From the NCBI GenBank assembly GCA_024403415.1, contig JAKSRY010000022.1:1-38283 (forward strand): a DNA stretch of 38,283 bases, written 5' to 3'. Shown here in pieces: positions 1 to 36,820 of this stretch (the stretch's first letter is position 1; every line of letters starts with the position of its first letter). The position numbers and the translations under genes are program-made. The stretch comes from Lachnospiraceae bacterium. Lineage in GTDB: Bacteria > Bacillota > Clostridia > Lachnospirales > Lachnospiraceae. The notes beneath the pieces were generated by a model. The model was not told the DNA's origin. It worked only from the letters and a program-made list of their open reading frames with translations, and made no database searches.

Positions 1-905
1 GCTTCAAGGTTGTAGTAGTATCCATCAGCGTTCTTTCCAACATATGAACCACCGTTAGAGAATACAGCTGCTCTTGTCATAACACCTTCGTTAAGTGTAA
101 GACCATATACATCGATAACACCATCGTTATCTGTATCACGATGAACCTGTTCCATAAGGTTAGCAAATGCATCCCATGTCCATGTTCCGTTAGCCTGCAT
201 CTCATAAATGCTGTTAGGATCGATACCAGCATCTGTTAATACTCTCTTGTTGAAGTATACACCAGTTCTAGGTTCTCCAGGACCAGCGTTCATAGCATAA
301 ATAGCATTTCCCTTTGAGTACATTTCATGAACCTTGTTGCTCTGGAACATAGGCTGAGAGAAATCAAGGCAATCAATTGTAGACAAATCGTACATCAAAC
401 CATTAGCCATACCAGAAGTAATAGCCGGGTCACCACGAAGAACGAAGATGTAGTTGTTGTCATCTCCACCTGTTGTAACGTAGTCTACGAAATCCTGAGG
501 ACATGAACCCCAGTCAGAGATAGCTAATTCCTTAATCTTGAAATTATATGTCTCCTGGATCCAATCTCTCCATTCCTGACGAGCTTCTTCATAATCATTA
601 GTAGGTTCTGCAACCTCACCTGATGACCACCAGTCACGAATAACGATTTCCATACCACCAAGGTCATATGGATTTCCGTTAGCATCTGTTAATACAGTGT
701 AAGGGCTAACTTCTTCTTCTACAACTTCTTCTGTTACTTCTTCAGTAGCTTCTTCTGTAGCAGGAGCAGCTTCTTCTGTCTTAGCTTCTTCTGTAGCAGG
801 TGCTTCTGTAGTAGTTGTTTCGTTACTGCTACAAGCAACAGCACTCATGCAAACAGCTGCAGCTGAAATTGCTGCCAAAACTTTCTTTGCCATAGGCTTT
901 TTCAT
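1..905 (-). CDS. Extracellular solute-binding lipoprotein of a sugar ABC importer (3' end outside window)
   Basis: The frame is open from an ATG at 905 to the window edge, giving the first 301 residues. The start follows an AGGAGG Shine-Dalgarno at 914-919. A basic N-terminus and hydrophobic stretch end in a lipobox-like A-V-A-C with Cys25 as the likely lipidated residue. A low-complexity Thr/Glu/Ala linker covers residues 30-66 and probably spaces the binding domain from the membrane. The remainder resembles family 1 (MalE-type) binding proteins, with the usual pattern of motifs such as GPGEPRTGVYFNK and NGTWTWDAF. An EF-hand-like loop with Asp256, Asp258, Asp260, Gly261 and Asp264 probably binds calcium. 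The gene lies 149 bp downstream of permease pair 2 and has its own promoter, as expected for a binding protein needed in excess. The substrate is inferred from context to be a xylan-derived oligosaccharide; the sequence does not show it. Confidence 0.9.
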   Translation of the reverse strand, partial: MKKPMAKKVLAAISAAAVCMSAVACSSNETTTTEAPATEEAKTEEAAPATEEATEEVTEEVVEEEVSPYTVLTDANGNPYDLGGMEIVIRDWWSSGEVAEPTNDYEEARQEWRDWIQETYNFKIKELAISDWGSCPQDFVDYVTTGGDDNNYIFVLRGDPAITSGMANGLMYDLSTIDCLDFSQPMFQSNKVHEMYSKGNAIYAMNAGPGEPRTGVYFNKRVLTDAGIDPNSIYEMQANGTWTWDAFANLMEQVHRDTDNDGVIDVYGLTLNEGVMTRAAVFSNGGSYVGKNADGYYYNLE

Positions 906-927
906 TAATTTTTCCTCCTTAATATAT

Positions 928-950
928 TTAACGAACACTATGCTCGTTAA
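928..950. repeat. Inverted repeat in the leader of the solute-binding gene
   Basis: TTAACGA at 928-934 and TCGTTAA at 944-950 form a perfect 7-bp dyad with a 9-nt centre. It lies between the predicted transcription start (near 955) and the AGGAGG ribosome-binding site. It could be an operator for a dimeric repressor or a leader hairpin. The dyad is seen; the role is inferred. Confidence 0.5.
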
Positions 951-961
951 CCACAATATGA

Positions 962-970
962 ATTATATCA
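962..970 (-). promoter_or_regulatory. Extended -10 promoter for the solute-binding lipoprotein gene
   Basis: On the minus strand the sequence reads TGATATAAT, a perfect TATAAT hexamer (962-967) with the TGn extension. The -35 position is poor, as is usual for extended -10 promoters, and falls within the stem-loop at 972-1017. Transcription should start near 955, giving a leader of about 50 nt. This would let the binding protein be made in excess over its permeases. Confidence 0.65.
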
Positions 971-971
971 G

Positions 972-1017
972 AACTTTTGAATAAAATCTATAAAAATTTT
1001 AATTTTATTCAAAAGTT
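972..1017. repeat. Perfect 15-bp AT-rich inverted repeat between permease and binding-protein genes
   Basis: AACTTTTGAATAAAA at 972-986 is the exact reverse complement of 1003-1017, separated by 16 nt. It starts 37 nt downstream of the stop codon of the permease gene and overlaps the -35 zone of the promoter at 962-970. In the permease transcript it could fold and stabilise or end the message. As DNA it could be an operator. No run of T follows the stem on the minus strand, so a simple intrinsic terminator is less likely. Confidence 0.6.
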
Positions 1018-1054
1018 GTTAACATTTTGTTCATATTCTATTCTGTTACGATAT

Positions 1055-2065
1055 TTACATCTTAATACCGGAACTTGAAATACTCTCAACGAATGCTCTC
1101 TGCGCAAACAAATACAAGATAATCAGCGGAACAACAATCATCAAAGTACCTGTAGCAAGTATACAGTTGGAATAAGCAACCGAAATTGTTGTCTTAACTC
1201 CCAATTCACGCTGAATGTATGCACCCAACGAATCTACGATTCTTGAAAGACCTGTTCCCAATAACTTTGTTGTTCCAAGGAACATCTTTGAATAGAATCC
1301 ATCAGTCCACTGCCATACAAATGCAAAAAGGAAACATGAAGTTAAAATAGGCATTGCTTCAGGAAGCATAATTCTAAAGAATGTCTTCAAGGTTCCGCAA
1401 CCATCAACATAAGCAGCTTCTTCCAAATCGCCAGGGATATTTCTAAAGAACTGTCGAATCATATAAATGTACAATCCATTCTTCAATCCCATACAGCCTG
1501 CACTCATCAGATAATATGGAAGAACCGAACCTCTAAGATTTATTGGTTCTCCATTAATCAAACTGAATATTCCAAATATATCAAAGAACTTAAAGTGCAA
1601 ATGAAGTGAGGTTGCAATTGTCTGTGGTGGAATCAAAATTACCAAAATTACACAGGCAAACCAGAAATTTTTAAGTGGAAACTTAAATCTTGCAAATCCA
1701 TATCCTACCAGTGTACACATCATAATCTGTAAAAGAGCAATTGATAATGATATTAAAAATGTATTCCTAATTGATACCGAATAATCCATCAATTCTGCTG
1801 ACAACTTATAATTCTCAGTAGTAAAATGCTCCGGAATGGATACTACTATCGGATTATACAAATCCTGTTCAGTCATGAAGGAAATAGAAATCTTATTCAA
1901 AATAGGCTGTAAGATCAGGAAACACAATCCAAAAAGAAGAATAAATCTGCAAATGCTAACAGCAATCGATGTTGCTTTCTTCTTTAATAAATACCCGCCG
2001 GACTTTCTGTTTCTCTCCCAGAAGGTACCGTTTGAATTAACCATTTTCTTTTTAGTTTTAATCAT
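1055..2065 (-). CDS. Carbohydrate ABC importer permease 2, MalG/UgpE type
   Basis: This 336-residue inner-membrane subunit belongs to the CUT1 sugar importer family. A basic N-terminus is followed by about six hydrophobic segments, the first near residues 32-54. The cytoplasmic EAA loop that docks on the ATPase is clear: it begins EAAYVDGCG, followed by TLKTFFRIMLPEAMPIL. The C-terminus (SISSSGIKM) is typical of MalG-like subunits. The gene overlaps the upstream MalF-like gene by 8 bp, showing translational coupling and a heterodimeric pore. The start at 2065 sits behind AGAGG with a rather long spacer; an alternative start at codon 8 has no better site. No ATPase is encoded nearby, so energy must come from a shared subunit elsewhere. 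The substrate is unknown but probably an oligosaccharide from xylan or its side chains. Confidence 0.93.
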   Translation of the reverse strand: MIKTKKKMVNSNGTFWERNRKSGGYLLKKKATSIAVSICRFILLFGLCFLILQPILNKISISFMTEQDLYNPIVVSIPEHFTTENYKLSAELMDYSVSIRNTFLISLSIALLQIMMCTLVGYGFARFKFPLKNFWFACVILVILIPPQTIATSLHLHFKFFDIFGIFSLINGEPINLRGSVLPYYLMSAGCMGLKNGLYIYMIRQFFRNIPGDLEEAAYVDGCGTLKTFFRIMLPEAMPILTSCFLFAFVWQWTDGFYSKMFLGTTKLLGTGLSRIVDSLGAYIQRELGVKTTISVAYSNCILATGTLMIVVPLIILYLFAQRAFVESISSSGIKM

Positions 2066-2972
2066 AATAATATACCCTCTTCGAAATAAATAGTGACGTT
2101 ATACCAATAAATACCAATATCAGCAAGAAATATATCCAGCTCATTGCCGATGCAAAACCATAATCAAGATTATCAATCATTACTTTCTGAATCTTCTTAA
2201 TTACTTCATTATCTGATCTCATACTGAAATCGATAACGGTATAAATCCAGTTAACAAGGAATAATGAACTGATCATAGGGAATGTTATCTTCCACAAACT
2301 TTCCCACTTAGTACATCCTTCAATATCTGCTGCTTCGTACATACTTGAACTTATTGTCTGCAAACCTGAAAGGAAAATAATAATCTGAATTCCTGAAGCC
2401 AAAGCAACATCATATATATGATCAATAATTTCAAACAATGTATCAAAAGCTCTTACACCAACTCCCGAAGTTCGAAGAACATCCTCCAAGGCTCCCGTTA
2501 TACTTATGTTTGATGTTGTATCCTCAATTGTCTGAGCAAGTTGAGCCATCAACTGGTTATTTGATTCAAGACCAAGAATAACACCTGATGAAAGAATAAC
2601 CGGCAAGAAGAACACAGCTCTTACTAACGCCCTTCCACGGAATTTTTGATTCAGGATTAACGCCATGAAAAAGCTGAATACTATAATAGCTATAGTGTAA
2701 GCCATCATTCGTCCCATTTCCTCAACCAGCAATCTTGAATACTCCGGATCAACTGTAAAAGCGTTTTTGTAGTTATCCAAACCTATCGGAGTACTTGTAA
2801 ACTCCCCGGAACCTAATGTAACTGTACAAAAACTCATCCAAAGAGATTGGAAAAATGGCTTCACCATAAATACTAAAAAGCCGATTATAAATGGTGCGAT
2901 AAACAGATAACCCGATATCGCCTTTCTTTTTTGAAGGCCGGCAAGTTTGTTTTTAGGCATCTTCATCTTCAT
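2058..2972 (-). CDS. Sugar ABC importer permease 2, MalF/UgpA type
   Basis: This 304-residue permease is the partner of the MalG-like subunit encoded at 1055-2065. The basic start is followed by a first membrane segment (GYLFIAPFIIGFLVF) at about residues 21-37, with further segments to the C-terminus. The EAA loop reads EAADIEGCTKWESLWKITFP, the conserved contact with the ATPase. An Asn/Gln-rich periplasmic stretch of roughly residues 130-180 is longer than in minimal permeases. The start at 2972 follows GGAGAG with a long spacer; methionines at codons 3 and 5 are possible alternatives. The 49-bp gap from the DUF5696-type gene carries a small hairpin. It is clearly the second importer of the locus because a separate pair lies at 7899-9747. 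Confidence 0.92.
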   Translation of the reverse strand: MKMKMPKNKLAGLQKRKAISGYLFIAPFIIGFLVFMVKPFFQSLWMSFCTVTLGSGEFTSTPIGLDNYKNAFTVDPEYSRLLVEEMGRMMAYTIAIIVFSFFMALILNQKFRGRALVRAVFFLPVILSSGVILGLESNNQLMAQLAQTIEDTTSNISITGALEDVLRTSGVGVRAFDTLFEIIDHIYDVALASGIQIIIFLSGLQTISSSMYEAADIEGCTKWESLWKITFPMISSLFLVNWIYTVIDFSMRSDNEVIKKIQKVMIDNLDYGFASAMSWIYFLLILVFIGITSLFISKRVYYYD

Positions 2973-2991
2973 TGGTACTTACTCTCCTTAA

Positions 2992-3006
2992 TGCCAAAAT
3001 CTGGCA
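2992..3006. repeat. Small intercistronic hairpin
   Basis: TGCCA at 2992-2996 pairs with TGGCA at 3002-3006 around a 5-nt loop, in the gap between the DUF5696-type gene and permease pair 2. It lies just upstream of the Shine-Dalgarno of the MalF-like gene. It may influence processing or decay of the message; this is inferred from position only. Confidence 0.35.
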
Positions 3007-3021
3007 AATAATATATTGATA

Positions 3022-5631
3022 TTACTTAACAACTAAATAATCTCTTGCTGGAACTGTTACACCATCGGCAGTTTCATCACTGTAACCATAGTTAACATAT
3101 ACCTTTGTTCCATCTGCATACACTGTACATGAAAGTGTTGGTGTTAAATTATCATGACCTGTCATTTCCTGATTAAATGTATGTCCAAGTTCATTATTAT
3201 ATCTTGTACATATTTCTACCATTCTGTCATGCCATGAATCAAAATTCGATCCATAATATTCGGTATAATATGTGTTCTGAAGAACGAATGCTGTTTCTTT
3301 CATAAGACTGAACTGAAGTCCTGCACCATACTCTGCAGAATAAAGAATTTCTTCTTCAGGATTACCACATATATTAATCGGATTACCTGTGTAATCTATA
3401 TATCCATGAATTGCTAACTGGAAGAATGGAACACACTCATCAATAATAGTATATTCGCTACCTCTCAAATCCATATTGGTTACAATATCAGAATAAGGAA
3501 CCGCATAATCATTACCCATATTAATCATGAGCTTCAAGCCCTTATCATCCATTGCCTTGAACTTATCTTTTTGAAGTTCAAGCACTGATTGTCTTGAATG
3601 GAAATCATCAAGGTAATAATCGGCTGCCAAATCTTCTCCGATATCCTCAAATGAAACACCCTGTGCACCGAAATCCTGAGCTGCTTCAAGAAGATTATCA
3701 ACCATTTCCATAGCCTTATTGGTATGTAACAAATAATATGGCTTAAAATGCTCTCTTGCCGCATATGTTACATGGCTGTATCTGTACAATTCTGCTCTTT
3801 CTTTTGATATCAGTTTAGCTGCATCTGTAAATGAGAAGAAACCATCAAAAATATCACTCTCATATGCATACATTGTTACACCATTAAGATACAGATTAAC
3901 GCCTAACTCTTTTGCTTTTGCGGTCAAATCTCTGAGATCACTCTTTGATCCTAAGTCAGAAATTGTCTTTACATGCTCAAGCACTCTCTGGTTAACACCC
4001 TTATTACACCATCCGACAAACTTAACTGAAAGGTTTTTAATTCCATCCTCTGTCAATATTTGAATAATATCTCCGGCCTCTTCATAAGATGTAAGTTTTA
4101 AAGGTCTGGAAACAGGAACACCTACGATCTGCTTAACCTTTTCAGCTGCTCCAACAATTTCAACTGCAACAGGAGCATTGGTGTCTTCATTCAGTGAAAG
4201 ATAACTTCCATACTGTTCCTTCAGATATGACTCATAATCCTTAGCCATATCTACATAATCTCCGGATGAAACAAATCTGAATTTCTGACTAATGTCTTCA
4301 TCAGGTAATTCCTGAATGAACTTAAATACATCAGAGTTTGCAATCTCACCTACATCATACTGTTCTCTTTCACAAATACTGTAAATTGCATTTACATAGT
4401 TATAACTATTGGTTTTTCCTGCAATATCTGCCTGGATGGATGCATACGAACTGCCGTCCTCAAGAATACAAATGAATGAATCATCCTGATTTGCAACGCC
4501 ATACACACCGTAATATGCTCTGGTATTATGTACTACTGCATCTCTTGTAAGGCACATATCCCATCCATACACATTGGTATAATAGTTACTCTGTGATACT
4601 TTACCATTATTAAAGTTAATAACCGAACCACCACCTTCAGGTACAAACAGATAACCTTCATCAGTTGGTCCGCCACATCCAAAATACGGAAGAAGGGTCA
4701 ATGTATAAACAGGGAACTCTTTCTTATATTCAATACTCTTCATTGGAACATTAACTTTAAGTCCATCTTCTTCAAGAGTATATTCTACGTCAACATTAAA
4801 TACCGGCTTATCATTCGAACTTTCAGACAAATCAAGTTCTTTATCTTTTGCATAATCTTCTAATGTATATCCTGCTTCAGCAAATATACCTTCAAACTTA
4901 TTTCTGACATTATCCTTAGCATTATCTCTCAGAATATAGATTATCTCATCTGCAAGAATAGGATACTTCTCAAGAAGTTCATCTTTATTATTTCTGTCCT
5001 TCTTCTTTAAGTTATTGATATCTTTCTTTTCATAATACTGCTTAATGCTGGTTGCATCTTTGTCAGACATATTTGCAATCCACTTATCAAAATCAGTCTT
5101 CTTACAAACGGTGGGAATAATAAATTCCTTCTGAACTTCACCAAGAGAATAACTTACCGTAACAGTATTTCCTTCTGTCTTGATATCATAAATTCCGTTC
5201 ATAACACTATATGCATAGCTGTTATATGTTGTTTCCAAACCGGTTTCTGTCATATAAGACATAAGAAGTGTTGACTGGAGTCTGTTCTTCTCATCCTGAA
5301 GTGCAAGTGAATCTGATGCACCGCCAGCCGGATTCGAATACCAGATTTTTCCTGTTTCTTTAACTTCAACATTAAACTGTGTTGTCATTGGATCCATGGT
5401 AAACTTAAATTTATCATTCTCAACAACAATCGGTTTTTCATCCCCCATATACTTTTCGACTGCTATTATCTCCTGTTCTTCCTCAGCATTCTGATAATTA
5501 AAAACAACCAAAACTCCTATTACAATAATCAGTGTAAGGATAACCGGAAAAATTAAGCTCTTCAAAAATTTTATTCTGTTATTTCTTTTCTCAACCTGTC
5601 TTTCGGTTAATTTGTTCTTCTCTTTACTCAT
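3022..5631 (-). CDS. Large membrane-anchored DUF5696-type protein, glycosidase-like architecture
   Basis: This 869-residue protein has a basic N-terminus and one membrane segment at about residues 25-46, so the bulk should lie outside the cell. Residues 60-480 look beta-rich (with a Lys-rich helical insert at about 180-265), followed by an alternating alpha/beta region at about 510-790, then a beta C-terminus. The alpha/beta part has features of a TIM-barrel glycosidase: NLSVKFVGWCNKG (534-546), LGVNLYLNGVTMYAY (576-590), GVSFEDIGEDLAADY (658-672) and DECVPFFQLAIHGY (731-744). Glu662, Asp663, Glu666, Asp667 and Asp731 are candidate catalytic acids. I recognise the family as DUF5696, often found beside CUT1 sugar transporters, but no activity is known to me. 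The start at 5631 follows GGAG at 5 nt. It sits between a YIP1-family gene and permease pair 2. That it is an enzyme is an inference from fold-like motifs. Confidence 0.8.
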   Translation of the reverse strand: MSKEKNKLTERQVEKRNNRIKFLKSLIFPVILTLIIVIGVLVVFNYQNAEEEQEIIAVEKYMGDEKPIVVENDKFKFTMDPMTTQFNVEVKETGKIWYSNPAGGASDSLALQDEKNRLQSTLLMSYMTETGLETTYNSYAYSVMNGIYDIKTEGNTVTVSYSLGEVQKEFIIPTVCKKTDFDKWIANMSDKDATSIKQYYEKKDINNLKKKDRNNKDELLEKYPILADEIIYILRDNAKDNVRNKFEGIFAEAGYTLEDYAKDKELDLSESSNDKPVFNVDVEYTLEEDGLKVNVPMKSIEYKKEFPVYTLTLLPYFGCGGPTDEGYLFVPEGGGSVINFNNGKVSQSNYYTNVYGWDMCLTRDAVVHNTRAYYGVYGVANQDDSFICILEDGSSYASIQADIAGKTNSYNYVNAIYSICEREQYDVGEIANSDVFKFIQELPDEDISQKFRFVSSGDYVDMAKDYESYLKEQYGSYLSLNEDTNAPVAVEIVGAAEKVKQIVGVPVSRPLKLTSYEEAGDIIQILTEDGIKNLSVKFVGWCNKGVNQRVLEHVKTISDLGSKSDLRDLTAKAKELGVNLYLNGVTMYAYESDIFDGFFSFTDAAKLISKERAELYRYSHVTYAAREHFKPYYLLHTNKAMEMVDNLLEAAQDFGAQGVSFEDIGEDLAADYYLDDFHSRQSVLELQKDKFKAMDDKGLKLMINMGNDYAVPYSDIVTNMDLRGSEYTIIDECVPFFQLAIHGYIDYTGNPINICGNPEEEILYSAEYGAGLQFSLMKETAFVLQNTYYTEYYGSNFDSWHDRMVEICTRYNNELGHTFNQEMTGHDNLTPTLSCTVYADGTKVYVNYGYSDETADGVTVPARDYLVVK

Positions 5632-5649
5632 TGTAGCTCCTAAACAATA

Positions 5650-5670
5650 AATTCATGAAGTATATGAATT
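5650..5670. repeat. Intercistronic hairpin upstream of the DUF5696-type gene
   Basis: AATTCAT at 5650-5656 pairs perfectly with ATGAATT at 5664-5670 around a 7-nt loop. It lies in the 58-bp gap upstream of the DUF5696-type gene, just before its Shine-Dalgarno. It may affect message stability or translation; no terminator T-run follows. Confidence 0.4.
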
Positions 5671-5689
5671 CGACTATCAACAACTGTCA

Positions 5690-6346
5690 TCACAATCGGA
5701 AAAGCAGTTCTCGACCTAATGAAATGAAATATGCAACACCCTGTGAAATCATTCCAAAGAATATCATCAGAATAAAAACCATTACCAAAATTGCAAATAA
5801 TGTCGCAACCGTAAACAATATATTCTTTCCACCTGAATATTCATGAATCTGACCCATCGCAACTATAATAAGAATTGCTGCATATATCAGTGAAATAACA
5901 TCAAGCATTCCGTATATTGCCGACTCTTCAACTGTCAGGAAATTACTTACAAACATAATTGGAATCTGAATCAATGGATACGGAACCAATCCATAACAGG
6001 TGGCCATATAAACCTGACCCAGTCGCCCTTTTCCATCAAACAACGTTGTCAGTGCCCAGTTACCAATTACAAACAATAACAACGGGAATAATACACTTAA
6101 TATATACGTAATAATATTTAACTCTTCCCAGTTAACTATCAATACAACGAAACCGGTGTACTTTAGTTTAATTACTCTTGTCAACAACGTAAGTATTAAT
6201 ATCGTATTTGCGGCAGCCATAGTGCCACGTTTTTCATGGGTTAAATCCCAATAACCATCCATTGGATGAGTCATACAATATAAAGCAAATTTTAATGACT
6301 TAAGGTATCTTACCCAAGTTTCTTTTTTTCTTAAGGAAGCAAACAT
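5690..6346 (-). CDS. YIP1-family polytopic membrane protein
   Basis: This is a 218-residue integral membrane protein. The N-terminal cytoplasmic stretch contains HPMDGYWDLTHEKRGTMAA (about residues 32-50), matching the conserved entry motif of bacterial YIP1-family proteins. It is followed by about five or six hydrophobic helices, including LLLFVIGNWALTTLF, LVPYPLIQIPIMFVSNFL and FTVATLFAILVMVFILMIFF. No catalytic motif is visible and the molecular role of bacterial YIP1 proteins is not established. I chose the ATG at 6346, which has GGAG seven bases upstream, over an in-frame TTG two codons earlier that would sit directly on the Shine-Dalgarno. The gene lies 22 bp after the NHL-propeller gene and before the DUF5696-type gene. 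This suggests the three products form one membrane assembly serving the two importers, which is inference. Confidence 0.8.
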   Translation of the reverse strand: MFASLRKKETWVRYLKSLKFALYCMTHPMDGYWDLTHEKRGTMAAANTILILTLLTRVIKLKYTGFVVLIVNWEELNIITYILSVLFPLLLFVIGNWALTTLFDGKGRLGQVYMATCYGLVPYPLIQIPIMFVSNFLTVEESAIYGMLDVISLIYAAILIIVAMGQIHEYSGGKNILFTVATLFAILVMVFILMIFFGMISQGVAYFISLGRELLFRL

Positions 6347-6368
6347 ACTCAAACTCCGTTTAGTTTAA

Positions 6369-7880
6369 TTACTTTGACAAATCTATCTTTTCACGTTCTG
6401 CAAGTGCTATTTCCATCTTGATATGCTTAATTCGTCCAATCACAAGAGGAACAATTATAACAACAGCAAGAATTGCAATTATGATTCCGATATGGTCTTC
6501 AACATACTGCTTACGATACTGCTTATAAGCTTTTGAATAATTCTCATCATCATATTTTACTTCGAAATATTTCATAGCTTCTTCAAATCTACGCTGTCTT
6601 AAGAGTGAACGACCAATACCTATATAAGCAAGATCATAGTTACCATTCTGACTCATAACTGATTCCCAGGATTTTCCTGAAGCCTCATAATCACCTGCAT
6701 CAAACTGCTCAATTGCGTTATAAACAGTCCGTCCAAACTCTGTTGGTATAAACATTGTCAATGAACAATCAAGACTATCAAGAACAAATAAATCATGACC
6801 TATATGTTCTATCGCTGCAGGACGTCTGAAGTAACCATCCATATTTCCGTTACCGCCGAAGGTGAAAACCATATGTCCCTGATCGTCATATGCGAACAAA
6901 CGACCTCTGTTATTGTCAAGACAAACATATACATCGTTTTCCATAACAGTAACATCAACGAATACTGAAGGACCTTCATGTCCACCACCGTTACCCCAAT
7001 AGAGGTCACCTACAGGATACCAGTCACCATTCTTAACAAGAATGTTATTACCCATAAGGTTAAGTTTTCTTACAGCATCAGCAGTACCATTATCAAGAGC
7101 TTCCTCATCAGCTCCACTGATTACGCCATATATAAATCCTTCATAATCCATATATATGTTACTGTACTCAGTAGGAACGAAAGATTCCATCTTTTCTAAC
7201 TGTTCCTGTGTTGCAAGCTTCTTCCAAATATAATCTGTCCAGTCGTAGGTAACAGGTGTAGCTCCTACAAATCCGGAAAAAGTTCCATCACTTTCGTATT
7301 TTACAAGACCTTTATTAATTCCTGTAGCAATACAATAGACTCTTTCCGCACTGTCAATAACCATCTTTGTCGGCTGGAACTCAAGTTTTTCATCCAGCGT
7401 GTTATCAACAGGTTTTACGAATTCCATCATATAATTTAAGTTCGAATCAAGTTTGAGAATTCGTCCATTACCATTATCACAGATAAAATAGTTACCATCT
7501 TCAGAGATTGCAAAGTCTGTCGGTGATTTAAATGTATTTATATCCGCCCCCTGGAACGAATCAATAATCCTTGTCACTTCAAGTTTCTCAAGTGAAGATC
7601 TCTCAAGCTCAATGATTCTGTTATTTCCTGTATCACATATGTAAATCAGATTTCCATATGCAAAAAGTCCTGAAGGATTATTAAGTTTAACATCCAGATT
7701 CAAGTCAGTTGATGTAAAAACTCTGCAAACCGAATACAAATCCGGACTTTCCTGAACTTCTCCCCAGTAATCATAGTTATATGTATAATTACTTTCTTTT
7801 GTAAAAGCAGTGAGCGGTGCAACAACTGTTAAGATAACCGCAAATACCGCAGCACTGATCCTCGAAAAAATCTTTTTCAT
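6369..7880 (-). CDS. Secreted, membrane-anchored NHL-repeat propeller protein with helical-repeat C-terminus
   Basis: This 503-residue protein starts with a signal sequence (hydrophobic residues 9-26, ending near an A-F-T site). Residues 45-380 carry NHL-type beta-propeller blades, for example GNLIYICDTGNNRIIEL (76-92) and DGNYFICDNGNGRILKLD (128-145), with a likely further blade ending at FVLDSLDCSLTMF. Residues 385-457 form TPR-like helical pairs (YNAIEQFDAGDYEASGKSWE; LAYIGIGRSLLRQRRFEEA). A C-terminal membrane helix at about 464-482 is followed by a short Lys-rich cytoplasmic tail. The propeller should therefore sit outside the membrane, probably binding protein or glycan; no enzymatic residues are recognised. 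The start has GAGG eight bases upstream. It lies 18 bp after permease pair 1 and 22 bp before the YIP1-family gene. Function is unknown. Confidence 0.85.
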   Translation of the reverse strand: MKKIFSRISAAVFAVILTVVAPLTAFTKESNYTYNYDYWGEVQESPDLYSVCRVFTSTDLNLDVKLNNPSGLFAYGNLIYICDTGNNRIIELERSSLEKLEVTRIIDSFQGADINTFKSPTDFAISEDGNYFICDNGNGRILKLDSNLNYMMEFVKPVDNTLDEKLEFQPTKMVIDSAERVYCIATGINKGLVKYESDGTFSGFVGATPVTYDWTDYIWKKLATQEQLEKMESFVPTEYSNIYMDYEGFIYGVISGADEEALDNGTADAVRKLNLMGNNILVKNGDWYPVGDLYWGNGGGHEGPSVFVDVTVMENDVYVCLDNNRGRLFAYDDQGHMVFTFGGNGNMDGYFRRPAAIEHIGHDLFVLDSLDCSLTMFIPTEFGRTVYNAIEQFDAGDYEASGKSWESVMSQNGNYDLAYIGIGRSLLRQRRFEEAMKYFEVKYDDENYSKAYKQYRKQYVEDHIGIIIAILAVVIIVPLVIGRIKHIKMEIALAEREKIDLSK

Positions 7881-7898
7881 ACTTTCGACCTCTTAGAA

Positions 7899-8804
7899 TT
7901 AATCCTTCAAACCTGAACTAGCCATTGTCTCAAGAATCTGGCTTTCAGAAAAGACAAATATAAGAATTGGAACAATCATTACAACGACCAAAACCGCCAT
8001 ACCTTGTCCGGTTCTTGCAATACCACCACTCTGTACCTGCTGTAATGCATAAACCAGAGTTTTTCTTTCTTCTGAATAAATAAAGGTTGATGCTTTATTG
8101 TTCCACAATGCCTGTACTGAGAAAATAATCAATGTCATCCAAGCCGGTTTTACGTTCGGCATAACGATTCCCGAAAATACTTTCCACTCGTTGGCACCAT
8201 CTATCTTGGCCGCTTCAATAAGAGAAGTCGGCAAACCTTCCATAAACTGCTTCATAAGGAACAATCCCATTGGTGAAGCAAATGCAGGAATAATAATAGC
8301 CCAGTATGTATCAATCCATCCTAACTTATTTAATATAATGTAGTTAGGAATCGCTGTAGCCCATCCTGTAAACATCATTGAAATTGTAACAACTTTGAAG
8401 AATCCCTGACCGCCCGGGAAATCATATTTTGCAAGCACAAAAGCTGCCATTGAAGCTACAATCAAGTGTCCAAACGTACCGACAAATGTGATAAATACGG
8501 TATTGAACAAGTATCTTGAGAAAGTAACCCAGCTCTTACCCATTGTAACAAACAAATCTGTAAAGTTATCAAAAGTGGGATGCTGTGCAAAAATTGTTGG
8601 AGGGAACTTAAACAGTTCATCCAAAGGTTTCAATGCTGCATTAACCGCAAATATAATCGGGAATGCCATAACAAATGCTGCTAAAGCCAGGAAAACATAT
8701 AATGCAATATCTCCTCCGATTGATCTATTCGGTTTACGACGCTTAATTAATTTCTTTTTATAAGGTTTTTCAACTTGTGCTTTCTTTTCTTTTCTCTTAC
8801 TCAT
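7899..8804 (-). CDS. Carbohydrate ABC importer permease 1, MalG/UgpE type
   Basis: This 301-residue CUT1 permease has a strongly basic cytoplasmic N-terminus (residues 1-27). About six hydrophobic segments follow, the first at 30-52 (ALYVFLALAAFVMAFPIIFA). The ATPase-contact loop reads EAAKIDGANEWKVFSGIVMP, a very regular EAA motif. The C-terminus (ETMASSGLKD) is the usual MalG-like ending. It starts 4 bp after the stop of the MalF-like gene at 8809, so the two are co-translated as a heterodimer. It differs clearly in sequence from the MalG-like protein encoded at 1055-2065, so the two are separate importers and not a recent duplication. The substrate is inferred from context only. Confidence 0.94.
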   Translation of the reverse strand: MSKRKEKKAQVEKPYKKKLIKRRKPNRSIGGDIALYVFLALAAFVMAFPIIFAVNAALKPLDELFKFPPTIFAQHPTFDNFTDLFVTMGKSWVTFSRYLFNTVFITFVGTFGHLIVASMAAFVLAKYDFPGGQGFFKVVTISMMFTGWATAIPNYIILNKLGWIDTYWAIIIPAFASPMGLFLMKQFMEGLPTSLIEAAKIDGANEWKVFSGIVMPNVKPAWMTLIIFSVQALWNNKASTFIYSEERKTLVYALQQVQSGGIARTGQGMAVLVVVMIVPILIFVFSESQILETMASSGLKD

Positions 8805-8808
8805 CTCA

Positions 8809-9747
8809 TCAAGTTCCTACTCTTCTCAAAAGACTCTGAATTGCCTTGTTACATAAAATCATCATCAGGAATAATACTGTTGCAATTGCACATGCATATC
8901 CCATCTCAAATCTTGAATAACCATAGTCAAACAAGTGTGTAACAATTGTTCGCGCTGCATAGTCTGTACTTGGATATCCACAAAGTGCCATCGTTACATC
9001 ACATACACCAAATGCCTGAGTAATTGACATAACCGCACCAAATAACAACATAGGTTTCATGTTAGGAAGTGTGATGTACCAAAGTTCCTGCCAACGGTTC
9101 TTAACACCATCCATATATCCTGCTTCGAACTGCGACCTGTCTACGCCCTGCAGGCCGGCTACGAATGACAGGAATCCGGTTCCCAAACTCATCCACAAAA
9201 TTACCAACATACAAATCGGTAACATATATGTAGGATTAATCAACCAGAGAATCGGTGTATCTATAATACCAATATCCATAAGAAGAGCATTTACATATCC
9301 GTATGTGTCTCCTCTAAAGAATATTGAAAAGATAACATAACAGTTACCTGCAATTGTAGGTGCATAGAATATGATAACGGCAACCGATCTTACCCATCTT
9401 GGAAGTTCGTTAATCAACCATGCAAACAGGAATGAAGCTATATAACCAATCGGTCCTGTTATAACTGCAATCAACAGCGTATTCTTTATACTGGTTAAGA
9501 AAATATCATCTTCCAATATCAAACTTATATAGTTCTGTAGTCCCATAAATCTTGGCGGTTCCAAGATATTGTAATAAGTGAAACTAAAGAAAATTGAGGC
9601 CACAACCGGAAAAATGAAAAACATTGCAAACAAGATTGCATATGGTGCAAGGAATGCATAACACATTTTGCTTCGTTTAGCCTTTTTCCATGCCACTCTG
9701 GCATTGTGCTTACGTAAGGCCCAATATTTGTGAAAAAATTCTTTCAT
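8809..9747 (-). CDS. Sugar ABC importer permease 1, MalF/UgpA type
   Basis: This 312-residue CUT1 permease has a basic cytoplasmic leader to about residue 29. The first membrane segment (YAFLAPYAILFAMFFIFPVV) is at about 30-49, and more follow to the C-terminus. The EAA loop is present in a divergent form, beginning FEAGYMDGVKNRWQELWYITLP. The start at 9747 has GGAG about nine bases upstream. It follows the large CBM-like/solute-binding fusion gene by 15 bp and precedes its MalG-like partner by 4 bp. Together these three genes make importer 1, which also lacks its own ATPase. Confidence 0.93.
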   Translation of the reverse strand: MKEFFHKYWALRKHNARVAWKKAKRSKMCYAFLAPYAILFAMFFIFPVVASIFFSFTYYNILEPPRFMGLQNYISLILEDDIFLTSIKNTLLIAVITGPIGYIASFLFAWLINELPRWVRSVAVIIFYAPTIAGNCYVIFSIFFRGDTYGYVNALLMDIGIIDTPILWLINPTYMLPICMLVILWMSLGTGFLSFVAGLQGVDRSQFEAGYMDGVKNRWQELWYITLPNMKPMLLFGAVMSITQAFGVCDVTMALCGYPSTDYAARTIVTHLFDYGYSRFEMGYACAIATVLFLMMILCNKAIQSLLRRVGT

Positions 9748-9762
9748 GTCGCAGGTCTCCTA

Positions 9763-12750
9763 CTATTTATCTCCATCTTCATATACGGTCATACCAAACT
9801 CTTTTCGCTTCTTGGTAATTTCCTCATCAATCTTAATCGAATAGTCTATGATAGTCTCTCGCGAATCATCCTTGTCGTTGATAACCTTTCTGATTGCATT
9901 AGAGATATGACGTCCTGTATAGTATCCGCCAGGCACTTCTCGGATACCTACTGTCTGATCCCACTGATCATTAAGAACTGCTATATCATGAGGGCTCCAA
10001 GAAAGCTTTGAGAAAGCATCTCTGTTGGCTGTAGCATATCGAGCTGAAGAACCAAGTAACGCTTCTATTTCTCGTCCAAATCTAACCTGCGTTTCAGGTT
10101 TTGCCCACCATTCCATGAACTTCCATGACTTTTCTTTAAGCTGCTGATTATCAGTTGAAATCATCATAGTTGCAGAACCGGTGATAAAGTCAGATCTGTC
10201 AAGATATTCCTCACCATTTTCGTCAACACGTGGTGTTCCAGGAATCAGTGTAAAGTCCCAAAGACCACGAATTTCCGGTGCCGATACCATCAAGGTATTA
10301 TATGTAGAATAAGGTGCAATACCAATTGGCATTTCTCCTGAACGGAATCTTGAAACAAAGTCATAAATTACCGGCAAGCCATAGTCATTGAAGTATTTAA
10401 CATAATCATCAAATGCTCTGATACCTGCTTCAGTATCAACTGTTGTCTTGTTCCCCACTTCGTTATACATATCTCCACCATACTGATAAAGCAGTGAGAA
10501 ATATAATGAAAGGTCAGGTACATTAGACATTGTCTGTGTTGCTGATGAAGAAACTGTCGAGGAACCTGCCGCAGTAGGAATACCTACTGACAAGTTATTT
10601 CCCTGAATTGTAGGTAACAATTCAATAAATTCCTTCCAAGTATTAGGTATCGCAAGACCAAGTTCTTCCATTACGTCCTTTCTGTAGAACATAACGCTGA
10701 AGGTCTGTGTTTCAGGAAGTCCATATACATGCTCATCAAGTCTGTACTGTTCATATGAACTTTCTGAATAATGACTTATTACATCCTTAAATGTATCAAA
10801 CTGTGTTAAATCTTCTGCTGCATTACGCAATGCATAGTTTACAGGCTGATCCGCACCAACAGAAAGAACTACGTTAGGTCCCCTTCCTGCCAAAACGGCA
10901 TTAAGCAAAGCACCCGGATCTACGATTTCAACGTTAACAGGAACTCCTGAATTAGGTGTGAAATCATCGTCAACCATTGCTTTCAGAATTGTTCCCTGAT
11001 CACGGCCGGTTAAGATCCAAACTTTTACTATATCTTCCTGTGAATCATCATATACATCACCAACAGAATTGTAATCTACAAAGAATGATGCAAAGAATGA
11101 TTTAACTTCATGCCACAATTTACCAAAAACATTAGCTGAGTCCTTATCAGGATTAACATCTGTTCCTGAAACTACAAGATAATCAACATCAAGTCTTGTA
11201 GAAGCCATATTAAGAGCTGCTGTTCCAAGTGCTGTGATATTATCCTTAAATGTAGTAAACTCTCTTGTTATCTTTCCGGGTTTCTCACAGAATCTTTCAA
11301 GCTGCTGTGCAACTGTCTGAGCTGTTGCAATCTGATCAGCCTTCTGTCCCGAATATGCAACCATATCATCAACTATCTTATAGAGTCTCTTGCACTCAAG
11401 ATCCATTGCCTCCATAATTTCAGGATACATCTTGTCTATATGATAATCTCTGTACTGGTCCGGGCTTGCACCTGTGTAAACCAATATCTTACGATATATC
11501 TGATTTAATCTGAATGTTGAATCCTCAAGGTCTTCAAGAATCTGACCTACACCACCGAGTGTAGCTTCAAGTCTGATAGTATGCTGACCTTTTGTAAGAT
11601 AGAAATTGTATAAAGATCCATTCTCATCTGCAAGATCAACACATTCCCAATCATTTTCATAATCAAAGGATACTGTTCTTGCTTCTTCGAAAGGTATTTC
11701 TCCATCAATCAAAAGACTACGTGATGATACCGAACCTCTCTGGTAGTTTTGGCGGCCCTTAACCATTATGTTATACAAACCATCTTCAGGAACTTCAAAA
11801 TTCCATTCAATCCATTGGCCTGCGTCTCTCCAGGTTTCACCACCTACGTAGTTAAGAATTGTATTTGTAACACTGTTTGGAACAGTTGTTGGTGAAGATC
11901 TGTCATATTTTGCGTACAATGAAGATTCTGATCTCAATGTTGAATCTTCACCCTGAATAGTAAGCATAAACTGCTTAGCTGCATCCGAAGAAGAAACCTT
12001 CGGGCAAGCTGCTGCATACTCTTCATATGTAGCAAGCTTCATAACTTTTCGAACCTCAAGATTCTTAATCACCATCGGTTCGCTTTCTGCATAAAGTGCA
12101 ATTGTATTAGTTCCTTTATTTAAGTAAAACTTAAAAGGATCTATGATATAACCCATATCATCTCTGAAGTATGCATTCTGCCAATCATACACCTCAACCT
12201 GAATAGGTCTGATTTCGTTACCCTGGTTATCTACTCTCTTTTCACCACCATCAGTCCAAATTCTTGTAAAGCTGATATTTCTTGCATCCTCAAAAGGAAC
12301 TTCTCCGTTTATATATACACAACGTTCTGCAGGAACGCCTCTGGATTCCGGAATAAGATAATCAAGATAAAGATTGTAAAAACCTTCTTCCTGAACATCC
12401 ACATCAAATGATACTGTCGAACCAATATCTGTGAAGAGTGCCTTGTCCACTCCCTCGTAGTTATTTACTACAGATACTTCAGCATCACCTTCTGACTTGT
12501 AGTTAAAAATATCTACTACAACCCCATCAGCAGGTTCTTTGGCATCAGCATGACCATTAAGATAACCGGTATAAGTTCCCTGTCTCTCCATACCGGCAAT
12601 ATCTTTAGAAAGGTCCACACCGGCATACTTCTCTGAAAAGTTTTCCTGATCAACCAGGGAAAGAATCACGAAAAGCAATACAAAAGCCGCAACCACTGCT
12701 AAAAATATGATTAATTTTTTCAAGCTCTTCTTTTTTTCAACATTTTCCAT
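9763..12750 (-). CDS. Membrane-anchored fusion of two CBM-like modules and an ABC solute-binding domain
   Basis: I chose the ATG at 12750 (995 residues) because GGAG lies six bases upstream; an in-frame extension to 12804 has no ribosome site. Residues 11-32 form a membrane anchor with no lipobox. Residues 75-235 and 265-400 look like two jelly-roll carbohydrate-binding modules (CBM6/35-like). Each has a motif of the kind INGEVPFEDAR or IDGEIPFEEAR, a GFYN/GLYN strand and a closing YLNKGTNTIAL or YLTKGQHTIRL strand. A helical linker covers about 400-540. From about 572 to the end is a family 1 solute-binding domain (VYGLPETQTFSVMFYRKDVM; SFKFMEWW-like WKFMEWWAKPETQ). Such a protein could hold polymeric or oligomeric glycan at the membrane and hand it to permease pair 1. 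The CBM assignment is from pattern only. It is about twice the usual length of a binding protein. Confidence 0.86.
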   Translation of the reverse strand: MENVEKKKSLKKLIIFLAVVAAFVLLFVILSLVDQENFSEKYAGVDLSKDIAGMERQGTYTGYLNGHADAKEPADGVVVDIFNYKSEGDAEVSVVNNYEGVDKALFTDIGSTVSFDVDVQEEGFYNLYLDYLIPESRGVPAERCVYINGEVPFEDARNISFTRIWTDGGEKRVDNQGNEIRPIQVEVYDWQNAYFRDDMGYIIDPFKFYLNKGTNTIALYAESEPMVIKNLEVRKVMKLATYEEYAAACPKVSSSDAAKQFMLTIQGEDSTLRSESSLYAKYDRSSPTTVPNSVTNTILNYVGGETWRDAGQWIEWNFEVPEDGLYNIMVKGRQNYQRGSVSSRSLLIDGEIPFEEARTVSFDYENDWECVDLADENGSLYNFYLTKGQHTIRLEATLGGVGQILEDLEDSTFRLNQIYRKILVYTGASPDQYRDYHIDKMYPEIMEAMDLECKRLYKIVDDMVAYSGQKADQIATAQTVAQQLERFCEKPGKITREFTTFKDNITALGTAALNMASTRLDVDYLVVSGTDVNPDKDSANVFGKLWHEVKSFFASFFVDYNSVGDVYDDSQEDIVKVWILTGRDQGTILKAMVDDDFTPNSGVPVNVEIVDPGALLNAVLAGRGPNVVLSVGADQPVNYALRNAAEDLTQFDTFKDVISHYSESSYEQYRLDEHVYGLPETQTFSVMFYRKDVMEELGLAIPNTWKEFIELLPTIQGNNLSVGIPTAAGSSTVSSSATQTMSNVPDLSLYFSLLYQYGGDMYNEVGNKTTVDTEAGIRAFDDYVKYFNDYGLPVIYDFVSRFRSGEMPIGIAPYSTYNTLMVSAPEIRGLWDFTLIPGTPRVDENGEEYLDRSDFITGSATMMISTDNQQLKEKSWKFMEWWAKPETQVRFGREIEALLGSSARYATANRDAFSKLSWSPHDIAVLNDQWDQTVGIREVPGGYYTGRHISNAIRKVINDKDDSRETIIDYSIKIDEEITKKRKEFGMTVYEDGDK

Positions 12751-12830
12751 AACTGTCTCCAAAAATACACATAATAATATTAACGATATATATAATAATA
12801 ACAATCGTGCAAATATACTTGCTAATTAGT

Positions 12831-12854: not shown

Positions 12855-14279
12855 TTAGTCTTCCTTACCAAAAACGAAAAAGCATGGTTTAGGCTGATAA
12901 TTATCATCAAACAGGAGTGGACACTGAACAGAATTTTTACTATTTCCGCCACCCACATTATTTGCTGTCTGCAGCCATGAATACTTATCAACTGTTCCCC
13001 AGAAAGTAATTCCGGTAAGCGTTGTATCCGGAGTATTGTTTGCTGATCCCATTGAATAATAAAGCATGTTATATCTCTTCCTCTGCTTTTCATATTCTTC
13101 AACTTTTGCTTCGTCAGAACCGTCATAATCACTTGATGCTCTAAGATCAAGCTCTGTAATCTGAACTTCACCGACTATCTTTCCATATTCCTTCATTGCT
13201 ACTTCCAATGAATTTGCATTCGGATCTTCCATTTGATAATGTCCCTGAAGGCCCATGGCAGTAATTCTGGTGCCAACTCCTCTTTCACCCTCAAGGTCCT
13301 TGATAGTCTGCAGAAGTTCCTTGATTCCATTCATTTTTTTGATAACCGTTTCATTATAATCATTATAGTAAAGTTCAAGTGTTTCAGGAGCGTATTTATT
13401 TGCAAACTTGAACGCATTAATTATGTACTCATTGCTTCCGTAAACATGCCACCAGCTTGAATTGCTTCCATGAGTATCATTGCTGAGTGGTTCAGAATTT
13501 TCACTGTCAGTCCTGTACTTACCTGTTGCATCCGAAATTGCTTCATTTACAACATCCCAGCCATAAAACATATCTTTATACTTACTGTCATCTCCTGTGA
13601 AATGAGTAAGAACCGTTTTAATGTACCACTCCAGTCTCTTATTCATCGTTTCTTTATCAACATATGGATTCTTCTTGTCATAATCCTCATGGAAAAACCA
13701 CTCTGGAGTCTGCGAATGCCATACAAGCACGTGACCTCTGACCATAATCTTTCTGTCAGGATTTGCTTCATTCCAGTCATAAATCATATCAAGCATCTTT
13801 TCCGGTCTCGAAAAATCCATAACCGGAACAGTAATAATTTCGCCGTTAAGTTCTTCCTGTTTTGTTCCGGGACAGCTTCCGTTGCTGTAGCCAAACAGAG
13901 AATCCGGTTTCAATTCGTTTCCAAAAGTAATCGAATCAAAATGTGTTGTTACTATATTAAAAACCTGTGGATCCTGTAACTCCGAAAGGGTTGCTGAACA
14001 TCCGATTCTGCACCCCATTTTCTTGGGAACACAATCTCTGAGAGCCGGTACATTAACTTCTTCAGCCGCAGCATTTTCCATTGTCTCTTCTGCAGTATCC
14101 TCTGCTTTTGCATCAGTCGCCTCAGCACTTTCTCCTTCATTGTCAGTTTCAGGTGTTTCCGCCACTGTTTCGGAATTATTCCCCGTAGTATTACCTGCTG
14201 TCACTTCTTCCGAGCAGCCTGACAAAAGGAATGCCGACATCGTTACCGCCATCAATCCGGATAAAAACTTTCTTTTCAT
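12855..14279 (-). CDS. Lipoprotein endo-1,4-beta-xylanase, glycoside hydrolase family 10
   Basis: This 474-residue GH10 enzyme cuts the xylan backbone with retention of configuration. The signal peptide ends in a clear lipobox L-S-G-C with Cys22. An acidic, Ala/Thr/Glu-rich linker covers residues 25-75. The GH10 barrel spans about 85-470. The acid/base Glu246 is in WDVVNEA and the nucleophile Glu376 is in VQITELDLR; GHVLVWHSQTPEWFF (182-196) is the usual substrate-binding strand. The length fits one catalytic domain without a binding module. The start at 14279 has AGGAG about six bases upstream. It is transcribed away from the AraC-type gene, with a dyad in its upstream region. Being attached to the cell surface, it would deliver xylooligosaccharides to the adjacent importers. 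Confidence 0.96.
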   Translation of the reverse strand: MKRKFLSGLMAVTMSAFLLSGCSEEVTAGNTTGNNSETVAETPETDNEGESAEATDAKAEDTAEETMENAAAEEVNVPALRDCVPKKMGCRIGCSATLSELQDPQVFNIVTTHFDSITFGNELKPDSLFGYSNGSCPGTKQEELNGEIITVPVMDFSRPEKMLDMIYDWNEANPDRKIMVRGHVLVWHSQTPEWFFHEDYDKKNPYVDKETMNKRLEWYIKTVLTHFTGDDSKYKDMFYGWDVVNEAISDATGKYRTDSENSEPLSNDTHGSNSSWWHVYGSNEYIINAFKFANKYAPETLELYYNDYNETVIKKMNGIKELLQTIKDLEGERGVGTRITAMGLQGHYQMEDPNANSLEVAMKEYGKIVGEVQITELDLRASSDYDGSDEAKVEEYEKQRKRYNMLYYSMGSANNTPDTTLTGITFWGTVDKYSWLQTANNVGGGNSKNSVQCPLLFDDNYQPKPCFFVFGKED

Positions 14280-14347: not shown

Positions 14348-14397
14348 CGCACTACAAAAATGTTAATAAAAATATTCCGTTATTGTCTTGTCAAATA

Positions 14398-14426
14398 TTG
14401 CTATTTTGCTCATATCGTGCTAAAAT
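14398..14426 (+). promoter_or_regulatory. Promoter of the AraC-type regulator gene
   Basis: TTGCTA (14398-14403) and TAAAAT (14421-14426) are separated by 17 bp, and the -10 carries the TGn extension (TGCTAAAAT). GTGC and GCAC flank the -10 as a short dyad. Transcription would begin near 14433, leaving a very short leader before the ATG at 14447. Confidence 0.55.
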
Positions 14427-14446
14427 GCACCTTGAGGTTAAATCAT

Positions 14447-15382
14447 ATGGCAGCAAAAACGAATTCTGAAATAAGTAGCAATTATAATACAATAAATATA
14501 GATTATACCGGAGAACGTACTCTTGATGGTGATGAGGAAAAAGTAGAGTTTTACCAAAACACCTCAAGTCGAATCTGGCTCAACGATTTGAATGTTGATT
14601 TTCCTGCTCACTGGCATCAGGCACTTGAAATAATAATGCCTGTCGAAAACACCTATGATGTCGATGTAGCCGGAGAATTACTCCGTCTCGAAACCGGTAA
14701 TATACTTATAATCCCCCCCGGTGAAATACATACTTTAACAGCCCCCAGGGAAGGAAAACGTTTCATCTTTATTATGGACTTATCCATGATAAGTATGTTG
14801 CGTGGTTTTGCCGGAATAAAAGCCCTGATGAATCATCCGATACTCATCAACAGGGAATCGTTCCCATTAATATATGATGATATATATCAGATACTTCTCC
14901 AAATGCGAAATGAATATTTTCGAAATGGCGAATATACAGAACTTGCCATTCAGGCCTTGTTGCTGAACCTGTTTATAAAACTTGGTGAGAACCATAACAA
15001 TGCTGATGCCCTCTTCCCCAATGTAAGACTCAACAAACAAAAGGAATATGTTCAGCGTTTTAATCAGATTCTGGAATACATTGATGAACACTACATGGAA
15101 GACATCACGCTCGAGGATACTGCCAAAGCTGCAGGATTCTCAAAATATCACTTTTCAAGATTGTTCAAACAATATACAGAATTTACGTTTTGCGATTATC
15201 TGTGTTTCAGACGAGTTAAGGCCGCTGCTGAACAGTTGTCGGAGCCTGATTACTCAATTACCGACATCGCCATGAATTCCGGTTTCCCAAGCATTTCTAC
15301 TTTTAACAGATTATTCAAACAACAGATGGGATGTACTCCAAGAGAGTACCGAAGTAAAAATGCAGGCAAAACGCGTATGTAA
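14447..15382 (+). CDS. AraC-family transcriptional regulator with cupin sensor domain
   Basis: This 311-residue regulator is the only clear plus-strand gene here. An open frame extends to 14360, but I chose the ATG at 14447, which has GAGG upstream and lies after the promoter. The N-terminal half is a cupin-type sugar-sensing domain (HWHQALEIIMPV; IIPPGEIHTL). The last ~100 residues form two helix-turn-helix motifs typical of AraC proteins: DITLEDTAKAAGFSKYHFSR and then ITDIAMNSGFPSISTFNRLF, ending in TPREYR. It lies head-to-head with the GH10 xylanase and tail-to-tail with the GH43 gene. It is thus the likely activator of the xylan locus in response to an oligosaccharide; target and ligand are inferred from position. 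Confidence 0.93.
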   Translation: MAAKTNSEISSNYNTINIDYTGERTLDGDEEKVEFYQNTSSRIWLNDLNVDFPAHWHQALEIIMPVENTYDVDVAGELLRLETGNILIIPPGEIHTLTAPREGKRFIFIMDLSMISMLRGFAGIKALMNHPILINRESFPLIYDDIYQILLQMRNEYFRNGEYTELAIQALLLNLFIKLGENHNNADALFPNVRLNKQKEYVQRFNQILEYIDEHYMEDITLEDTAKAAGFSKYHFSRLFKQYTEFTFCDYLCFRRVKAAAEQLSEPDYSITDIAMNSGFPSISTFNRLFKQQMGCTPREYRSKNAGKTRM

Positions 15383-35123: not shown

Positions 35124-35179
35124 CACTATTTCCCACAGTTTAGACAAATCTAAATTCAATAATCTGTCAAGCGGTCATC

Positions 35180-36637: not shown

Positions 36638-36784
36638 TTATTTAGAAACCTTCTCACATGTCTGGTTTCCAACTGTGCAAGAAGTCTTGCATGCTGACTG
36701 GCAAGATGTCTGGCATTCGCCACATCCACCCTTCTTAGCAGATTCCTTTAAGTCTCTTGTTGTTAATGTCTTAATTCTTTTCAT
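36638..36784 (-). CDS. scfA: Six-cysteine ranthipeptide precursor SCIFF
   Basis: This 48-residue RiPP precursor is shorter than usual gene-finding cutoffs. The leader MKRIKTLTTRDLKESAKKGG is followed by a core with six cysteines at 21, 24, 28, 32, 36 and 43, separated by Ser/Thr residues (CGECQTSCQSACKTSC). This matches the SCIFF (six cysteines in forty-five residues) family, whose cysteines are bridged to neighbouring residues by the maturase encoded next door. The start has GGAGG eight bases upstream and a strong promoter. SCIFF is nearly universal in Clostridia, but its role is unsettled. Its context with secDF and recJ is conserved. Confidence 0.96.
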   Translation of the reverse strand: MKRIKTLTTRDLKESAKKGGCGECQTSCQSACKTSCTVGNQTCEKVSK

Positions 36785-36820
36785 TATATCTACCTCCATC
36801 GGTTATTATACTTATACATA

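Follow-up and report, generated by a model that had tools for sequence, protein, structure and literature searches.

The window analysed here, contig JAKSRY010000022.1 (G000:C15) of a Lachnospiraceae bacterium at its full length of 38,283 bases, comes from a genome rated 87% complete and carries a run of nine minus-strand genes in the order CBM-SBP fusion (carbohydrate-binding module and solute-binding protein, designated CS), MalF1, MalG1, NHL, YIP1, DUF5696, MalF2, MalG2 and SBP2. In this module, two distinct pairs of CUT1 permeases of the ATP-binding cassette (ABC) type, each in clades of its own, travel with a fixed set of NHL-TPR, YIP1 and DUF5696 proteins. The nine genes, with the evidence for each in brackets, are the following.

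9763..12750, minus strand: CS, membrane-anchored fusion binding protein (Pfam, reading of the open reading frame (ORF), predicted model)
8809..9747, minus strand: MalF1, first CUT1 permease (PF00528, 48.2 bits; own clade)
7899..8804, minus strand: MalG1, partner of the first CUT1 permease (PF00528, 46.1 bits; own clade)
6369..7880, minus strand: NHL propeller protein with a signal-like N-terminus, a TPR-like segment and a C-terminal membrane helix, the membrane parts as read from sequence (PF01436; family profile against NHL and TPR structures)
5690..6352, minus strand: YIP1 membrane protein (PF04893)
3022..5631, minus strand: DUF5696 protein with an N-terminal membrane helix and a GH129-like ectodomain (PF18952; fold comparison)
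2058..2972, minus strand: MalF2, second CUT1 permease (PF00528, 28.6 bits; own clade)
1055..2065, minus strand: MalG2, partner of the second CUT1 permease (PF00528, 43 bits; own clade)
3..956, minus strand: SBP2, solute-binding protein with a lipoprotein-like start, truncated at the contig end (PF01547 match of 19 bits, under the cut-off)

Coordinates and Pfam matches bore out the strand, order and mostly short gaps originally described for these genes. Intergenic gaps were 4 to 98 bases with an overlap of 8 between MalF2 and MalG2; the gap before SBP2 lengthens if the gene starts at a more internal in-frame ATG, and the CS ORF opens at a TTG at 12804 with an in-frame ATG at 12750. Promoter- and terminator-like sites occurred no more often than in shuffled sequence, so that only the gaps point to co-transcription of the module.

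The constancy of the arrangement was evident from 101 family loci (the window plus all 100 other listed DUF5696 matches above 400 bits), from loci in named genomes (the best 80 of at least 499 relatives) and from phylum loci (40 of 56 listed places, in 32 genomes). Among family loci, NHL lay directly upstream of DUF5696 in 99 (one was contig-cut and one, L086, had none) and YIP1 was found in 99, with one cut and one, L056, missed by the script and located by tblastn; a permease pair stood downstream in 96, five being cut, and upstream in 90, ten being cut and L086 having none. The complete nine-gene order was present in 60 of the 80 named-genome loci, and the remaining 20 ran into a contig edge before the module was complete. 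At the phylum loci, NHL was upstream in all 40, YIP1 was present in 40 by locus listing and 38 by a stricter script, and a permease pair followed DUF5696 in 39, one being cut (37 by script, which missed L275 and L278); a CS-MalF-MalG set was noted downstream in L262, L270, L275 and L276. NHL-YIP1-DUF5696-MalF2-MalG2 is a tight core, and importer 1 is a constant but movable partner. The original prediction had tied the NHL-YIP1-DUF5696 trio to CUT1 importers, and in the 101 family and 40 phylum loci, contig-cut loci apart, a permease pair stood beside the trio (L086 being without a detectable NHL) and no trio scattered without transporters was seen. Odd gene orders at L047, L050, L083, L088, L101 and L123 were traced by tblastn to artefacts of ORF picking.

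The same association was noted at the level of genomes, for which 299 Lachnospiraceae (family sample) and 398 Bacillota (phylum sample) were searched. The YIP1-type profile and the MalF1 profile (E up to 1e-80) each matched 62 of the 299 family genomes, a proportion which, the sampled genomes being related, does not equal 299 independent trials. The two sets were identical by script comparison and both lay inside the 63 genomes with DUF5696 at E up to 1e-50, the 63rd of which (G030) had a partial DUF5696 match only; all 62 genomes with the YIP1 and MalF1 types thus held DUF5696 as well. Carriers in this sample spanned 62 of 298 genera. Those in the named-genome collection included Butyrivibrio hungatei DSM 14810 (L154), B. 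proteoclasticus P6B7 (L161) and metagenome-assembled genomes called Acetatifactor and Roseburia. The other genome of the window's genus (G190) was without YIP1 and MalF1 matches, which indicates that presence of the module is patchy. In the phylum sample, DUF5696 reached E 1e-20 or better in 37 of 398 genomes, and MalF1-type permeases were found in all 12 genomes searched, with scores of at least 411 bits versus at most 177.6 bits for the other listed permeases. Six to ten YIP1-type matches per genome were noted in G285, G173, G288 and G161 (some partial in G285), and some species may carry many module copies for different glycans; since each search scored only a few candidates per genome, 3 to 10 in the capped ones, copy numbers are lower bounds. 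The nine-gene set is a recurrent, coherent system, and the original observation was right and understated.

All four permeases in the window scored above the cut-off for PF00528 (BPD_transp_1), MalF2 barely so (28.6 versus 26.4 bits). In a permease tree containing, after length filtering, 109 MalF1, 111 MalG1, 125 MalF2 and 130 MalG2 sequences, four clades agreed with gene position without exception, including downstream copies of importer 1, with supports of 0.998 for MalF1, 0.995 for MalG1, 0.952 for MalF2 and 0.924 for MalG2. A loose pattern for the EAA loop matched all 109 MalF1, 110 of 111 MalG1, 119 of 130 MalG2 and 80 of 125 MalF2 sequences; nearly all the corresponding stretches in the 45 MalF2 sequences that were missed proved to be variants of this loop, that of L129 being too short to tell. 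Since EAA-like loops are retained, use of an ATPase is plausible for both pairs. No ATPase gene is present within the nine-gene module, and one UgpC/MsmX-type ATPase above cut-off lies elsewhere in the genome (G000:C56:9-1070, 493 bits), from which we infer a shared ATPase serving the module permeases.

Each importer is accompanied by a sugar-binding protein, which for importer 1 is CS, with solute-binding families matched above cut-off at 81.9 and 80.5 bits, and for importer 2 is recognised through relatives of SBP2. SBP2 in the window has a lipobox-like start, is truncated and reached 19 bits against a PF01547 cut-off of 26, and an SBP2 relative occupied the corresponding place in most of the 80 named-genome loci. 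The description of two complete importers is therefore not borne out within the window, where SBP2 is cut and its match is below cut-off, but is borne out by relatives. The CBM label given to CS was similarly mixed in outcome, in that the CBM_35 match (PF16990) fell below cut-off (25.6 versus 28 bits) whereas the predicted model showed a CBM35/CBM6-like fold. In this model (pLDDT 62 and pTM 0.50 overall), the beta-sandwich region was built with good confidence, a membrane helix, two beta-sandwiches and a helical stretch with fair confidence, and the solute-binding part with poor confidence; Foldseek listed CBM35/CBM6 modules (2w1w and 2cdp, each TMt 0.64) and proteins like maltose-binding protein (MBP). 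The predicted layout of CS would be an N-terminal membrane helix, two CBM35/CBM6-like beta-sandwiches, a helical stretch and an MBP-like solute-binding domain.

Pairwise distances between module components, compared over the 59 loci that held every component, correlated at 0.91–0.97, and at 0.80–0.88 where SBP2 was involved, values that partly reflect shared ancestry of whole loci. The most variable component was SBP2 (mean identity 0.21) and the least variable MalF1 (0.51). Together with the distance correlations, this suggests a largely constant task for importer 1 across loci and a retuning of SBP2.

Among the central proteins, the NHL domain (PF01436) scored 36 bits against a cut-off of 20, and the family profile matched NHL and TPR structures, indicating an NHL propeller combined with a TPR-like segment. 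The YIP1 domain (PF04893) scored 44.4 against 28.6 bits, and a sequence search turned up no solved structure related to this type of YIP1. The two proteins, separate in the window, were encoded by a single ORF in 61 of 141 loci, with YIP1 at the NHL C-terminus. Of these, 38 were family ORFs, including four left incomplete by a contig edge, and 23 came from the 40 phylum loci; these fusions support an association of NHL with YIP1. Sequence reading would place both the NHL C-terminus, which follows the membrane helix, and the YIP1 N-terminus in the cytoplasm, making such a fusion topologically simple. A YIP1-DUF5696 fusion in L056 was apparent only, the two lying in different reading frames.

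The DUF5696 protein matched PF18952 at E 2.5e-197 and its fold was GH129-like over the full length, comprising a beta-sandwich, a TIM barrel and a C-terminal beta domain. Sequence similarity to GH129 structures was remote (profile E values of 2e-12 to 5opq and 5e-7 to NagBb), and among 33 DUF5696 members scanned, none matched a Pfam glycosidase family at E up to 0.1. Residues D358, W541, R680, N753 and E767 were near constant. At the Pfam cut-off, DUF5696 was detected in 82 of the 299 family genomes, many of these matches being weak and partial. In one such case from the genome of the window (G000:C4:12140-12478, L002) and in similar weak matches in many family genomes, only the middle part of the profile was matched; the proteins concerned, mostly about 440–900 amino acids long with some above 1000, are perhaps other GH129- or GH36-like proteins.

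Glycan enzymes were found beside the module in the window and at other loci. Upstream, and outside the conserved module, are three local neighbours.

12855..14279, minus strand: GH10 xylanase with a lipoprotein-like start (Pfam, sequence reading)
14360..15382, plus strand: AraC-type regulator, divergent
15444..17003, minus strand: GH43 enzyme in which no signal peptide is visible

Because GH10 and GH43 adjoin it, the substrate of the window copy is probably xylan fragments. In Butyrivibrio, CUT1 genes that adjoin GH10 and GH43 genes, and that may or may not belong to copies of this module, are described as induced on xylan or pectin (PMC6344614). A wider set of neighbours comprised 167 ORFs from 100 family loci (at most two per locus, same strand, 250–1300 amino acids, short and edge-cut ORFs excluded). 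Among the families listed, the most frequent enzymes were 21 of GH43, 14 of GH130, 13 with the GH51 C-terminal domain, nine of GH3, seven of GH10 and seven of melibiase type, and there were at least four each of GH16 and GH26 (each counted in one half of the set only); some neighbours, such as a prismane protein, a cation efflux protein and an Fe-alcohol dehydrogenase, were not glycan enzymes. The varied carbohydrate-active enzymes across family loci rule out a xylan-only system and indicate that one kind of module goes with many plant glycans, so that the original emphasis on xylan reflects local context only.

Elsewhere in the window, on the minus strand between 34305 and 36799, a Cys-rich peptide of at most 53 amino acids (36638-36799) adjoins a SCIFF maturase (TIGR03974, E 8.7e-239). 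With a SecD-like head protein (34305-35159) and SecDF (31908-34160) in the same region, this resembles the known SCIFF ranthipeptide cluster.

The explanation that we favour, tentatively and at somewhat less than even confidence for the whole, is that the module is a conserved Bacillota glycan-import system with NHL-YIP1 and DUF5696 as ancillary proteins at the membrane. The step held with most confidence is that the module products would cooperate at the membrane, with NHL-YIP1 and DUF5696 as accessory subunits nearest to MalF2-MalG2 and CS-MalF1-MalG1 as a partner needed in the same genome, though not necessarily adjacent. With less confidence, the permeases would rely on the UgpC/MsmX-type ATPase that is shared within the cell. 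Less confidently still, DUF5696 in most members may, by analogy with CD98hc, hold or guide an oligosaccharide in a glycosidase-like pocket without hydrolysis; the rapidly evolving SBP2 and the binding protein that bears the CBM would capture different ligands. Least certain is the last step, in which the extracellular NHL propeller and the membrane-embedded YIP1 might tether the hand-over or gate it. Different module copies would handle different glycans. The original idea of an envelope complex is plausible and has gained support, gene linkage and single-chain predictions being the support from which we infer complex formation, hand-over and substrate.

Several observations weigh against this explanation. 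An upstream permease pair was absent from 11 of the 40 phylum loci and five more were cut at that point, so that gene order does not call for one complex containing both importers. L086 (G161:C36) was the sole uncut family locus without a detectable NHL or upstream importer, having ORFs of 442 and 522 amino acids in their place along with DUF5696 and YIP1, and the distance correlations partly follow from common descent as noted above. The remaining points concern catalysis and bear on the foremost alternative, namely that DUF5696 is an active, GH129-related surface glycosidase that trims oligosaccharides before import, with catalytic residues varying by subfamily. Candidate acid positions were assigned tentatively, D486 of ZgGH129 to D663 from strand position only and E517 to N704 from a weak local alignment; both positions were acidic in 18 of 140 DUF5696 proteins, comprising 5 of 100 from the family and 13 of 40 from the phylum outside it, and the latter proportion indicates that some members may be enzymes. 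The full-length GH129-like fold also speaks for activity, and D358 and E767, being nearly constant, could support a different chemistry. However, the acid pair was absent from the other 122 members, including that of the window, where D663 is present, position 704 is not acidic and the candidate counterparts of E517 and E531 are N and T. Position 704 was mostly non-acidic in the split type, and position 663 was mostly glycine in the fused type. We consider this alternative unlikely. Since the acid pair is not conserved, cutting appears a less likely role for DUF5696 in the majority of members, and the part of the original prediction in which the trio cuts a glycan may apply to some members only.

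A further alternative, which we consider improbable, is that the trio senses glycans or regulates transport, with NHL and DUF5696 reading a ligand outside and YIP1 relaying this to the importers or ATPase. The predicted topology, with a propeller and a sugar-pocket protein outside and a membrane protein with conserved loops inside, would suit such a role, as would the constant company of importers, but domain scans of the NHL, YIP1 and DUF5696 proteins found no signalling domain and an AraC regulator is already at hand beside the window copy. An envelope role only genetically linked to sugar uptake, such as assembly or placement of surface lipoproteins or permeases, could be argued from the action of eukaryotic YIP1 proteins in membrane traffic and from the lack of a solved relative of this YIP1 type in sequence searches, but is very improbable given strict co-occurrence with one CUT1 clade rather than with CUT1 permeases generally (the 12 phylum genomes above).

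The uptake of long branched plant glycans is understood less fully for Gram-positive bacteria of the gut and rumen than for Bacteroidetes with their SusCD route. The favoured glycan-import module, present in 62 of 299 Lachnospiraceae genomes, with its DUF5696 marker in 37 of 398 phylum genomes and up to ten YIP1-type matches per genome, is a testable candidate for a major plant-glycan uptake route. It holds three poorly characterised proteins, one of which, DUF5696, gains a fold and constant genetic partners. Such a module was absent from titles and abstracts among the literature matches listed. Most subscription literature being outside the search, nothing was found on DUF5696 by name or linking NHL repeats with solute-binding proteins and oligosaccharides, Yip1 with NHL repeats and ABC transporters, or Caldicellulosiruptor with ABC transporters and NHL repeats. 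Among the papers listed for the ZgGH129 mutant, none dealt with that enzyme.

Among known systems, the closest in general plan are CUT1 oligosaccharide importers with a shared MsmX/MsmK/UgpC ATPase, such as Athe_0595-0598 of Anaerocellum bescii (PMC12838199) and the Butyrivibrio sugar ABC systems (PMC6344614). They have in common with the module permease domains, binding proteins, neighbouring glycoside hydrolases and an ATPase elsewhere in the genome, and the text of neither paper mentions NHL or Yip1. The module differs from them in its two fixed permease clades and its NHL/YIP1/DUF5696 set. With the GH129-type enzymes NagBb and ZgGH129/DagB (5wzn, 5opq, 8rzk; PMC5698469), the DUF5696 ectodomain shares a fold and remote sequence similarity. 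Unlike those enzymes, DUF5696 has an N-terminal membrane helix, no conserved catalytic acid pair and a location in importer operons.

CD98hc (SLC3A2), a pseudo-amylase with a membrane anchor, acts as the partner of an amino-acid transporter, and its structure, 7df1, turned up in the DUF5696 comparison. The likeness lies in a membrane helix and a sugar-enzyme-like barrel linked to a transporter, the link for DUF5696 being a genetic one. In the SusCD systems of Bacteroidetes, surface capture of long glycans is coupled to uptake, a task to which that of the module would be similar. A Pfam scan found no SusC or SusD homologues among the module parts, and the module differs in having no outer membrane to cross and ABC importers instead of a TonB-dependent channel. 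A stronger version of this comparison, which we regard as doubtful, is that the module is a Gram-positive counterpart of SusCD, in which a GH129-like pseudo-glycosidase and NHL-TPR-YIP1 would physically couple two ABC importers, the CBM-bearing binding protein would pass plant-fibre chains to the permeases, and mainly SBP2 and nearby enzymes would be retuned for each glycan.

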